Positions 1 through 22,079 of a stretch of DNA of 23,987 bases are shown here, in pieces. The notes under the pieces were generated by a model. It saw only the letters and a list, made by a program, of their open reading frames with translations, made no database searches and was not told the origin of the DNA. A program made the position numbers and the translations under genes. Location: the IMG/VR virus record IMGVR_UViG_3300025030_000416, positions 1 to 23,987 of that record; one strand, 5' to 3'. Source of the stretch: a virus. Each line of letters starts with the position of its first letter. Position 1 is the first letter of the stretch.

Positions 1-365
1 CCAAAATCACCACTAAAACTCTGCCGGGCTACCACGAACCATTTAGCTGCCCTTATAACCTTATCCGTCTCTTCTTTCCATTCCTTCCGATACTCATCAT
101 AAAACTGGCGGCTATAAGGTAATACTGCTACCCTACGATAAAATTGGTTAAACAACTCAGGATCAGCTAAAACAGAAAAGAAATCATATAGGCCCCGATC
201 CAGATCATTATAGACCTCTAATGGCTTAGGCTTCTTAGCTAACAGAATCGAAGCCCCACCACCAAAAGGCTCCACATATCTTTCGTGGGGTATCTTAATT
301 AACACGGGAATTATTTTTCTTACCATATTACCTTTTCCACCAAACCAGCGTATTGGGCTTCTCAT
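1..365 (-). CDS. Dam-type (D12 class) adenine-specific DNA methyltransferase, C-terminus cut by window edge
   Basis: This was read by translating the minus strand; about 121 residues are present. The N-terminus has WFGGKG followed by PFGGGAS, the S-adenosylmethionine-binding motif I of the D12 class, and then YNDLD, as in Dam and phage T4 Dam. The catalytic DPPY motif would lie beyond the left edge. The start is the ATG at 365-363, preceded by GGAG with a 5-6 nt gap. It is the last gene seen in the leftward replication block. A phage Dam-like enzyme would methylate adenine in phage DNA, plausibly to avoid host restriction, but the target site cannot be read from this fragment. Confidence 0.85.
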   Translation of the reverse strand, partial: MRSPIRWFGGKGNMVRKIIPVLIKIPHERYVEPFGGGASILLAKKPKPLEVYNDLDRGLYDFFSVLADPELFNQFYRRVAVLPYSRQFYDEYRKEWKEETDKVIRAAKWFVVARQSFSGDF

Positions 366-1074: not shown

Positions 1075-1915
1075 TTTCTTTTATCTCCTCCCGTTTTTCT
1101 TGTGACTCATCCATATACTCGTGTAGCCCTTTCCATTCTTTCGGTATTTTTTTTATAGGGACCCTTTTAGCTTCCTGTAAGTAGCCCTCAAATTTCTCAG
1201 CATTAAAGAGAGTTGAAAGCCGAAGATACTTTCGCATATCAGGGTCATTGATCCATTCTTTTGTTTTGAGGTCTATCACAATTTTGAAATCTTCTAAGGT
1301 ATATCCTTCTTTAAGTCTAGCAGTCAGAAATTTATTTGATTGAGAATTGTGGGGAAAAGTTGATCCTATTACTTGATTAAGATAATCAATAGCTTCATTA
1401 CTTTGTTTTTGGAAAGATGTAAGGTCGGGTTTGCCCGACTGTATATTATCCTTATCCTCATCCTTACTTACTAATCCTAATACTAATCCTGCAGTCGTGG
1501 TTGGATTTTTTTGGGATAGACTATAGGGATACTCTATTGATAGACTATCGTAGTAGTCTAAAAAATCCTGAATTAATGGGCACTTATGAAGAGTAAGGAG
1601 ATGATTTTCAATGTTCGTTTTAACTTTATCATTGAAAACCTGATGTTGAAGCATTTTGCGTACCCAAACGACAGAAAAATTTGGATGGTATAGAGTATGC
1701 CGATAGTCTACCGATAGAGTATGTATCTCTTGTTTTAATTCTTTGGCCGAAAGTCCTGTTTCTTCCTGGATGGTTGAAACAGGTAGATAATAGATACCTG
1801 AAATATGGCCATGAGGATTGGTAATAAAATATAAAAAGAGGCCTTTGGTACGAAAAGAAAGAGGTTTTACTTCGGGGTCAGTCCAAAAAGAATCGTTTAC
1901 AAATCTTTTGGCCAT
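1064..1915 (-). CDS. phage replisome organizer-like protein (DnaD-type, conserved phage C-terminal domain)
   Basis: In this 283-residue protein, residues about 1-110 look like a winged-helix DNA-binding region (SFWTDPEVKPLSFRTKGLFLY, then a GLSAKELKQEI helix). Residues about 175-250 carry the pattern of the conserved phage C-terminal domain found in replisome organizers: a YLNQVIGSTF helix, ARLKEGYTLEDFKIVIDLK, W, then KYLRLSTLFNAEKFEGYL. Such proteins bind the phage origin and recruit the helicase with a loader, which fits the gene downstream. The start is set by GGAGGT five bases before the ATG. That ribosome binding site is the target of the leader RNA pairing described at 1915-2075. The middle (residues about 120-170) is low-complexity linker. 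Confidence 0.8.
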   Translation of the reverse strand: MAKRFVNDSFWTDPEVKPLSFRTKGLFLYFITNPHGHISGIYYLPVSTIQEETGLSAKELKQEIHTLSVDYRHTLYHPNFSVVWVRKMLQHQVFNDKVKTNIENHLLTLHKCPLIQDFLDYYDSLSIEYPYSLSQKNPTTTAGLVLGLVSKDEDKDNIQSGKPDLTSFQKQSNEAIDYLNQVIGSTFPHNSQSNKFLTARLKEGYTLEDFKIVIDLKTKEWINDPDMRKYLRLSTLFNAEKFEGYLQEAKRVPIKKIPKEWKGLHEYMDESQEKREEIKENGG

Positions 1916-2075
1916 ATCTTACCTCCATAACAAGGTTAGAGAAGGGGAAGTGTTATGGTGCTTCCCCTTCTTTCCCCAGGTAAGTCAAGAGGGGACTTTG
2001 GGCGGAAACCCTCATGCCTTACCAGGCTGTCAAATATAGAACCTGGGGATCAGCCAAGTCCAAAAGGAGTGTTGA
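1916..2075 (-). ncRNA. riboswitch-like structured leader RNA of the replication operon
   Basis: All pairings are seen directly; minus-strand reading, plus coordinates. The upstream element has GGACTT (2061-2056) with AAGTCC (1998-1993), CCAGG (2046-2042) with CCTGG (2026-2022), GGTAAG (2023-2018) with CTTACC (1984-1979), and GAGGG (2013-2009) with CCCTC (1993-1989). The first helix crosses the last two, making a pseudoknot. The downstream element is a perfect 10-bp hairpin (1970-1961 with 1950-1941). Eight loop bases (1958-1951) are exactly complementary to 1932-1925, which runs into the GGAGG ribosome binding site. In addition CTTACCT (1984-1978) can pair with AGGTAAG (1924-1918) at the ribosome binding site, in competition with its partner at 2023-2018. 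No known riboswitch class was recognised. The function is inferred. Confidence 0.55.
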
Positions 2076-2079
2076 ATAT

Positions 2080-2108
2080 ATAATACCATGTGCTTTTTAG
2101 TTTATCAA
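2080..2108 (-). promoter_or_regulatory. candidate sigma-70 promoter for the leftward replication genes
   Basis: Read on the minus strand, TTGATA (2108-2103) and TATTAT (2085-2080) are separated by exactly 17 bases. This is a good match to the -35/-10 consensus. Transcription would begin near 2073 and give a leader of about 160 nt before the ATG at 1915. No equally good plus-strand promoter was seen in the same gap. TTGCTT (2176-2181), 17 bases, then TAGATT (2199-2204) is a weak candidate for the rightward genes. Confidence 0.6.
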
Positions 2109-2532: not shown

Positions 2533-3311
2533 CTGCCGAGTACCATCATCTTACCAGGGAGTTAGAGGTACGGGTACGGGAGATGTTTGAAAACGGGAAA
2601 AATATTAGCCAGATAGCCAGGGAGATCGGGTATTCCCGGGTGACCGTGCAGAAGTGGATAAAAAAATGGAGGCTTAAAACGGGTAAGCTAAAGCCGCTAG
2701 GCCACATGCCTAGAAAGGGATTACCGCCTATCGTGGCTCGGTATGATCGGTTGGCGGCACAAGGTATTCCGAAGGAAGTGGCTGAGGCCAACGATAAAAA
2801 TATAGAGCTATGTTTAGAGTGGGATAGGTGCGAGATATGTTTGCTGAGTCCGGGCAAGCGGAAGCAGTTGAAAGATATGTATTATGCGGGTTTTTCACCG
2901 CCGTTGATAGCCGTGTATCACAAGATTCCCTTTAGGGCGTTGGCGGGTCATGCACTACGCAAGAAGTGGGATCGTAAGATGGCCAACGATCCAGAGAGGA
3001 TAGCGACCGAGCGGGATACGTTGCTAGATGAGGTGTATCATATCATAGCGGAGTCAGAGGCGAGTGGTACACCGGCGGATAAGATAGCGGCATTAAAACT
3101 AGCGGCACAGTTGCAGGAAGTTGGGTCTTTTAGGGCAGAGAAAGAGAATACCCCGCAGAGGGTTTTTACTCCGGGAGTGTTGGTGAAGATGAAGCTAACG
3201 CTTAATAATACTGGGCAGACAAGAAATACCCTAGAAGAGGGGGAAGAGAATAGCGAGATGCTAGAAATCACGGCAGGGGAACTAAAAGGAGGAAAGGAAA
3301 ATGAAATATAG
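2529..3311 (+). CDS. helix-turn-helix DNA-binding protein, candidate small terminase subunit
   Basis: The 260-residue protein carries a clear helix-turn-helix at residues about 22-48 (NGKNISQIAREIGYSRVTVQ, then KWIKKW). A second HTH-like stretch lies near residues 125-150 (YYAGFSPPLIAVYHKIPFRAL, then a basic helix). The C-terminal third is acidic and probably disordered. N-terminal HTH plus a helical middle is typical of small terminase subunits that recognise the packaging site. It lies on the same strand upstream of the large terminase, but the cassette arrays and about 9.5 kb separate them. A homeodomain-like transcription regulator is the main alternative. Its 3' end overlaps the next start by 11 nt. 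Confidence 0.5.
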   Translation: MTAEYHHLTRELEVRVREMFENGKNISQIAREIGYSRVTVQKWIKKWRLKTGKLKPLGHMPRKGLPPIVARYDRLAAQGIPKEVAEANDKNIELCLEWDRCEICLLSPGKRKQLKDMYYAGFSPPLIAVYHKIPFRALAGHALRKKWDRKMANDPERIATERDTLLDEVYHIIAESEASGTPADKIAALKLAAQLQEVGSFRAEKENTPQRVFTPGVLVKMKLTLNNTGQTRNTLEEGEENSEMLEITAGELKGGKENEI

Positions 3312-20274: not shown

Positions 20275-21468
20275 TTGGTTCTATTGACCTTTGTTGTTAT
20301 CCTGACTATTGCACTTAGTATTGATCCCTTTACCACCGATTGTTTGAACTATAAAACCCTGAGCTTGCTGACATTTGGGGGAGTAGGGGCGGTGGTTTTA
20401 TTCTGGAAGCAATATCCCCTATTTTCTGTTCTTGCCCTTGTGGCCTTATACCATTATGTCAGTCCGGCAGGTATGTTCCCGCCTAGTCTTATTGTGCTGG
20501 CTTATGGAGTGCTTTTTACCGCACTCTTTTATTTCTGCAAAAACCATCTCCAGGATAATTGGATTAAGATGGCTATATGTGTGGCGGCTATTTTCCAGGC
20601 TGGTTATGGTCTGATGCAAATTTTCTATGACCCGATATTTACAATGATTGACGAATCCCTTGTAAGTTGGCGCATATTTGGGACCTTCGGCAATAGTCAG
20701 TATTGGGCAATGTTTCTGGTGGCAGCTATCCCGCTATTTTTTGTCAATAGTTCGGTTCGTTATTTCAGGGCAATAGGATTACCTATAGTATTGGGGGCGT
20801 TATTAGCCAATATTGTTGTCCGCCATGAGATAGGATTTAGTGAAATGGTGGGGGTGATTGCCGGATTGATATGGGTGGCGCATTTAGGCATTAGGCGGCA
20901 TTTCTTTCTTCCTTTTGTTGTAACGAGTCTTTTAGCAGGGATTTTAGTGAGTGTTATGCTGAGCTTTTCATCAGCAATCAGGAGTAATGTAGTTATGGCA
21001 TTCAATAACCGGCTTTATATTACCAAAGAGACCATGTCTCTTATTAAGAAACAGCCCATAACAGGTTATGGGTTGGGCTTTTATGAGCCTATCATGTCGT
21101 TATATGATAAGCAATGGGAGCATACGCAGGCCCGGGGGCCTAACAAGTGGGGTAAAGACACGATTCTTACCTATGCCCATAATGAATATTTGCAGGCATG
21201 GTTTGAACTGGGTTTGCTGGGGTTGGTAGGAAGCGTGGGACTATTCTGTTACGTTGGATGGCAGGCATTATTTGGGACTGTAAATATGCCCTATTGGTAT
21301 AGTGTATTTATTGTCGGACTGTTCGCATGGGTACATTTCCCCTTGCACTTGCCTTTTATGGCGGTGTTTTTTCTTAGGGGGACCGAGCAGCCACTGCCAG
21401 TGAAAAAGAAAAAGGGGAAAGGGTTGTATTATGGTTGCCCAATGCCCAGGACGGTGAAGTTTATTTGA
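20275..21468 (+). CDS. O-antigen ligase/polymerase-like integral membrane protein
   Basis: The 397-residue protein has about ten hydrophobic segments. It also carries the Wzy_C/O-antigen ligase signatures: GTFGN (136-140) before a membrane segment, KKQPITGYGLGFY (258-270), and a loop ending AHNEYLQAWFELGLLGLVG (301-319), with the conserved His and Glu. Such enzymes join or polymerise O-antigen or related glycans on the periplasmic face of the inner membrane. The start TTG has AAAGGAG about eight bases upstream. The C-terminus is Lys-rich. Placed amid head genes, it could alter the host surface polysaccharide. The exact substrate cannot be read from sequence. Confidence 0.75.
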   Translation: MVLLTFVVILTIALSIDPFTTDCLNYKTLSLLTFGGVGAVVLFWKQYPLFSVLALVALYHYVSPAGMFPPSLIVLAYGVLFTALFYFCKNHLQDNWIKMAICVAAIFQAGYGLMQIFYDPIFTMIDESLVSWRIFGTFGNSQYWAMFLVAAIPLFFVNSSVRYFRAIGLPIVLGALLANIVVRHEIGFSEMVGVIAGLIWVAHLGIRRHFFLPFVVTSLLAGILVSVMLSFSSAIRSNVVMAFNNRLYITKETMSLIKKQPITGYGLGFYEPIMSLYDKQWEHTQARGPNKWGKDTILTYAHNEYLQAWFELGLLGLVGSVGLFCYVGWQALFGTVNMPYWYSVFIVGLFAWVHFPLHLPFMAVFFLRGTEQPLPVKKKKGKGLYYGCPMPRTVKFI

Positions 21469-22027: not shown

Positions 22028-22079
22028 GGGGCTGGCCCTGGGGAAAATAAGCCTAGATAGAGACAGGATGCCCAGCCCC
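22028..22079 (+). other. long-range hairpin before the adaptor gene
   Basis: GGGGCTGG (22028-22035) pairs with CCAGCCCC (22072-22079), with CCTG (22037-22040) and CAGG (22064-22067) pairing inside. There is no T-run, so it is not a clear terminator. It may act on RNA stability or translation of the gene at 22097. Confidence 0.45.

Follow-up and report, generated by a model that had tools for sequence, protein, structure and literature searches.

The 5′ leader of the replication operon in this virus resembles a translational operator more than a riboswitch that senses a metabolite, and its structure probably limits or controls production of the initiator. Near the start codon of the DnaD-like initiator gene the leader is structured far above chance, and this part is best described, on the predicted pairings, as two hairpins, S1 and S3, whose loops form a kissing-loop or H-type pseudoknot at the Shine-Dalgarno sequence (SD). 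In its simplest form this predicted arrangement amounts to adjacent hairpins with complementary loops, of which S3 masks the SD.

The window, the whole stretch of DNA that was analysed, is a single virus record of 23,987 bases, with structural genes for a P22-type portal, a Phage_capsid_3 major head protein and a terminase. Amid these lies an ORF (20275-21468) with a match to the O-antigen ligase family Wzy_C (5e-16), which is unusual in a phage and possibly points to modification of host surface sugars. A further peculiarity is a segment of 28 bases (22040-22067) that is missing from three near-identical contigs (L002, L003 and L004) and falls in an intergenic hairpin, GGGGCUGG...CCAGCCCC. 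The replication operon is on the minus strand and runs leftwards through the initiator, a 215-aa protein, whose start overlaps the end of the initiator gene, and a D12-class methyltransferase (Table 1). The initiator gene begins with the SD GGAGGU (1926-1921), a five-base spacer and an AUG at 1915. A promoter-like site may place the start of transcription near 2073; as 1.4 such sites are expected by chance in the region scanned, this evidence for a leader promoter is suggestive only. The divergent intergenic region (2094-2217) holds two more inverted repeats, 2119-2138/2147-2166 and 2094-2104/2207-2217, the latter adjoining or covering the −35 region of the leftward promoter, and both are possible operators. 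The initial annotation had described a structured minus-strand leader before the replication operon and taken it for a riboswitch: the leader, of about 158 nt, its promoter-like sequence and the SD-occluding pairing are borne out, and the riboswitch is not.

Table 1. Genes, promoter-like site and predicted RNA pairings of the leader region, in window coordinates.
Feature	Position	Strand	Details
D12-class adenine DNA methyltransferase, 5′ part	1..365	-	PF02086 1.9e-10; truncated by window end
Second operon gene, 215 aa	427..1074	-	phrog_30578 (annotated unknown function) 1.8e-7
DnaD-like / Phg_2220_C replication initiation protein, 283 aa	1064..1915	-	PF09524 2.4e-25; phrog_428 3e-33; phrog_1701 6e-23
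5′ leader of replication operon, about 158 nt	1916..2073	-	nested z -3.5, packing z -4.3
Hairpin S3, CUAACCUUGUUAUGGAGGUAAG	1918..1939	-	encloses SD GGAGGU (1926-1921); probability 0.99; -5.1 kcal/mol alone
S2, predicted loop-loop / H-type pseudoknot pairing, 8 bp	1925..1958	-	CCAUAACA (1958-1951) with UGUUAUGG (1932-1925)
Hairpin S1, stem 11 bp	1940..1971	-	10-nt loop CACCAUAACA (1960-1951); probability 0.96; inverted repeat I7
Alternative anti-SD helix, 7 bp	1918..1984	-	CUUACCU (1984-1978)/AGGUAAG (1924-1918); directly abuts S2
Long-range helix, 9 bp	1973..2049	-	UCCCCAGGU (2049-2041) with ACCUGGGGA (1981-1973); probability 0.95; inverted repeat I16
Promoter-like site	2080..2108	-	TTGATA-17-TATTAT, extended -10 TG; 10/12 consensus matches

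The stem of S1 is formed by AGAAGGGGAAG and CUUCCCCUUCU (1971-1961/1950-1940), and S3 carries in its loop the very segment with which the S1 loop can pair. This loop-loop pairing, S2, consists of eight Watson-Crick pairs that extend into the SD and cover its first two bases (G, G), with a stacking energy of -13.0; such energies are sums over stacks and carry no penalty for the pseudoknot. From the second base of the SD onwards, pairing in the nested ensemble is at 97-100%, through S3 (0.99). At the sequence level the leader carries a predicted pseudoknot at or near the ribosome binding site (RBS), as is expected of a pseudoknot translational operator that works like that of gene 32.

These features exceed what shuffled sequences and other gene starts produce. 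For the 72-nt domain at 1984-1913, helix packing, which allows any topology, gives a z of -5.5 and nested folding, which excludes pseudoknots, a z of -3.8, with none of 100 shuffles reaching either value. The combination of hairpin and loop/SD pairing has a p of 0.002, the floor for 500 shuffles, and the joint energy of S1 and S2 is unmatched by the best pseudoknot at 412 other gene starts. Contiguous coverage of the RBS by two adjacent helices occurs in 23 of 20,000 shuffles (about 0.1%) and at none of 1072 control starts, and the loop-loop pairing energy of the window is equalled at one of 879 control gene starts. As a baseline, the control leaders of these phages also show slightly more structure than shuffles (mean z -0.69), with 3.9% at or below -3.5.

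Is this arrangement found in front of related initiators? Relatives were collected via profiles of the initiator N-terminal domain (27-56% identity). Their leaders have no significant sequence similarity to the window leader and no trace of its upstream domain, and the complementary segments that the initial annotation expected homologous leaders to share are not kept. Relatives of the Phg_2220_C type are mostly without a long leader, and in three close relatives (L324, L329 and L331) the gene abuts or overlaps the upstream ORF and has none. Among the close relatives that do have leaders, most are more structured than controls. Two relatives have the same architecture in unrelated sequence. 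In L332 the initiator is related over its full length, shares the domain architecture (PF09524) and is 30% identical over about 264 aa. It is preceded by a near-consensus promoter (11/12), a 139-nt intergenic gap and a strong hairpin; the loop of its SD hairpin, CUACCGAAUAGGAGUAG, pairs over 8 bp with an upstream UUAUUCGG that lies in an unpaired part of this strong hairpin. The L326 initiator (43% identity over the N-terminal 125 aa) has a leader with an S1 of GCCUGUC/GACAGGC, a hairpin abutting the SD, CUCUUACGCAAAGAG, and 6 bp of loop pairing, UUUGCG/CGCAAA. The kissing pairing is absent in L322, L127, L325 and L323. L322, the closest relative (56%), has a near-consensus promoter and a leader of about 150 nt with a nested z of -4.3, in which the SD is folded partly within the base of a 24-bp stem. 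That leader (2846-3000) has competing pairings of its own, unrelated in sequence to those of the window: AGAACACA/UGUGUUCU, GGGAUU against two copies of AAUCCC, and CCUGAAUA/UGUUUAGG at the SD.

Counted over all relatives with an SD, the SD-hairpin/loop architecture is present in two of nine (L332 and L326, the window excluded) versus 8 of 879 controls, the latter being those that reach the L326 energy. The enrichment (Fisher p 0.004 for these counts, range 0.004-0.016) is post hoc, and since the architecture was defined after the cases had been seen, its recurrence in relatives is suggestive only. This stricter test was used in place of a looser pseudoknot statistic, whose family-wide excess of RBS pseudoknots was dropped because several of the positives resembled intrinsic terminators of upstream genes (L310, L313 and L219). 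The leader might also be merely idiosyncratic, structured for instance for mRNA stabilisation or passive attenuation and with no regulatory role, the complementarity between loop and SD being coincidental. Its orphan sequence, and the several relatives that lack a leader or such a pairing, would fit this reading; several related tests with chance levels of about 1 in 1000, the recurrence in L332 and L326, and the excess of structure over controls in most close relatives' leaders speak against it, and we regard it as unlikely.

Known translational operators offer partial parallels. In the gene 32 operators of T4 and RB69 the pseudoknot was kept though the sequences diverged (PMC535899), and one protein regulator can be served by distinct RNAs (PMC5100602). 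The window leader resembles the gene 32 case in belonging to a phage replication gene, in having a pseudoknot (here predicted) in the 5′ leader, and in its sequence divergence among related phages. However, the T4 and RB69 pseudoknots precede an RBS that is unstructured and has UUAAA repeats, along which gp32 spreads, whereas in the window the pairing extends into the SD, the SD sits within a hairpin of its own, and the protein belongs to a different family. The gene 32 operator is also autogenous, while for the window leader autogenous repression is a proposal.

A second parallel, the repZ leader of ColIb-P9 (IncI-alpha), likewise belongs to a replication initiator and has its pseudoknot directly upstream of the RBS, and there the pseudoknot is needed for translation and is blocked by an antisense RNA (PMC8383071). 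By analogy, a pseudoknot next to the RBS can also activate translation, which counts against a model of repression. The pseudoknot of the window might accordingly be an activator under antisense control, in which case the loop-SD pairing would help ribosomes to load and either an antisense RNA or the translation of a short upstream ORF would compete for the S1 loop. The kind of gene and the position of the pseudoknot are the same as in repZ, and a 20-codon ORF (AUG at 2016) has its stop codon, UAA, within the S1 loop. In contrast to repZ, however, the pairing overlaps the SD, and neither an antisense promoter nor a functional leader peptide is evident: S2 would obstruct the site instead of presenting it, nothing promoter-like was seen on the plus strand in 1700-2400 (a consensus scan only, and hence a weak test), and the 20-codon ORF has no properly spaced SD. 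Since the first two bases of the SD lie within S2 and an antisense promoter was not seen, we consider an activating role distinctly improbable.

Alternatively, the inverted repeats could act as DNA, as a binding site for a repressor or the initiator or as part of an origin, with the RNA pairing a by-product. The S1 arms form a perfect inverted repeat, AGAAGGGGAAG-10-CTTCCCCTTCT (I7), whose half-site centres are 21 bp apart, or two helical turns, and an origin is often near the initiator gene, so that a general association of initiator genes with a nearby origin also favours this reading. Yet a function in DNA does not readily explain two interleaved inverted repeats of which one runs exactly into the SD, and interleaving of this RNA type is kept in two relatives with unrelated arms. 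A better origin candidate is moreover found inside the initiator gene itself, where iteron-like repeats (GATAGACTAT/ATAGAGTATG, direct and inverted, in 22-nt units) lie at 1515-1560 and 1689-1723. A role as a DNA element is in our view quite doubtful.

The remaining part of the leader concerns the riboswitch that was initially proposed. All pairings named in that proposal are present on the minus strand. The hairpin with an 8-base loop pairing beside the SD is real, with a stem of 11 rather than 10 bp, and CUUACCU does have two partners, AGGUAAG (1924-1918) at the SD and, as CUUACC, GGUAAG (2023-2018) upstream. The 9-bp helix 2049-2041/1981-1973 and the SD hairpin 1939-1918 had been missed. 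An upstream pseudoknotted fold can be drawn as well, but the upstream domain, 2064-1972, does not clearly exceed shuffles in structure, with a packing z of -2.3 and a nested z of -1.0. The 9-bp helix is incompatible both with GGUAAG/CUUACC (2023-2018/1984-1979) and with the alternative anti-SD helix, and together with S3 it prevails in the nested ensemble. Once it is blocked, the probability of GGUAAG/CUUACC rises from 0.02 to 0.99, whereas CUUACCU/AGGUAAG, which had been proposed as the helix of a translational switch, stays at 0.0 in all cases in this model, which excludes pseudoknots. The SD is equally masked in the same model whichever alternative strand is blocked; since a nested model cannot include the pseudoknot, this absence of SD switching is evidence rather than proof. 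Mutually exclusive pairings can thus be drawn on paper, yet they are not predicted to shift the pairing of the SD, and the energy model gives no support for a coupling of the upstream domain with the SD.

Searches for homologues of the leader were likewise negative. Rfam 15 gave no matches at gathering thresholds, and permissive E-values yielded only chance-level, unrelated ones. No leader homologue was found by blastn in phage records or by BLAST and nhmmer on the fetched loci, a 14-mer scan of viral contigs returned 109 stretches, all chance-like, and R1 and R2, covariance models built from a single sequence, recovered only the window itself convincingly from 60 sources; R2 on 30 genomes, run with no positive control, gave no matches. 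Words common to the window and L127 ('CATGAGG...TCCG' and 'GTTATGGAGG') were taken as chance, the leader-to-leader BLAST having an E-value of 0.69. Single-protein scans with the initiator and with the neighbouring HTH protein found no relatives, a portal scan found only near-identical contigs, none of which extends to the leader, and the bacterial genomes searched for close relatives of the initiator held distant ones only. In the phage records, viral contigs and genome contigs searched, and among relatives of the gene, no alignable homologous leader was found in which a conserved, covarying aptamer could show.

HDV-like, hammerhead, twister and preQ1/SAM-type folds were rejected for the leader because of their topology. 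The preQ1-II and SAM-II classes are translational riboswitches with SD-occluding pseudoknots. Like them, the window leader engages the SD or its flank in a (predicted) pseudoknot; unlike them, it has no conserved aptamer, Rfam match or ligand-linked gene context, and its upstream domain is an orphan, whereas known aptamers are conserved across genera. A metabolite-binding riboswitch, in which 2064-1972 would bind a ligand and CUUACC would decide the pairing of the SD, can thus draw on three mutually exclusive helices (UCCCCAGGU/ACCUGGGGA, GGUAAG/CUUACC and CUUACCU/AGGUAAG) and on a double-pseudoknot topology that uses nearly all segments, but given the weak upstream domain, the unaltered SD masking and the lack of any Rfam match, homologue or trace of the domain in relatives' leaders, we hold it to be very improbable.

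On balance, and with moderate confidence, we favour the view that the last 60-70 nt of the leader are a sequence-divergent translational operator of the initiator gene, locked by the pairing of the S1 and S3 loops. Computation shows the pairings, their departure from chance, the masked SD of the nested ensemble and the architecture in two relatives; that the structure forms in the cell and represses, and that a regulator acts on it, we infer. S1 and S3 would fold as the leader is transcribed, S3 would mask the SD, and a kissing-loop or H-type pseudoknot contact between its loop and the apical loop of S1 would lock the masked state, so that basal translation of the initiator and of the genes coupled to it would be low. 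A trans-acting event that opens or stabilises the S1-S3 complex would then set the level of translation. The factor acting on this complex would most plausibly be the initiator itself, or another RNA-binding factor of phage or host; the simplest model is that the initiator binds autogenously, as gp32 does in T4 and RB69. Related phages would have the same arrangement in different sequence, as expected of a structure-dependent, fast-diverging operator. More tentatively, a group of DnaD-like phage initiators might be under kissing-loop RBS operators, with the loop of an upstream hairpin paired to that of an SD-masking one, which change in sequence too fast for homology searches to find them and yet keep their architecture, an extension that we find conceivable but rather unlikely.

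The leader offers a short and directly testable target, consisting of two 8-nt segments and one compensatory swap. If the operator is real, such elements, kept only in their layout, would be missed by RNA searches that depend on homology, and phages with DnaD-type initiators would set the dose of their initiator at translation, by locking the ribosome binding site through a loop-loop contact.
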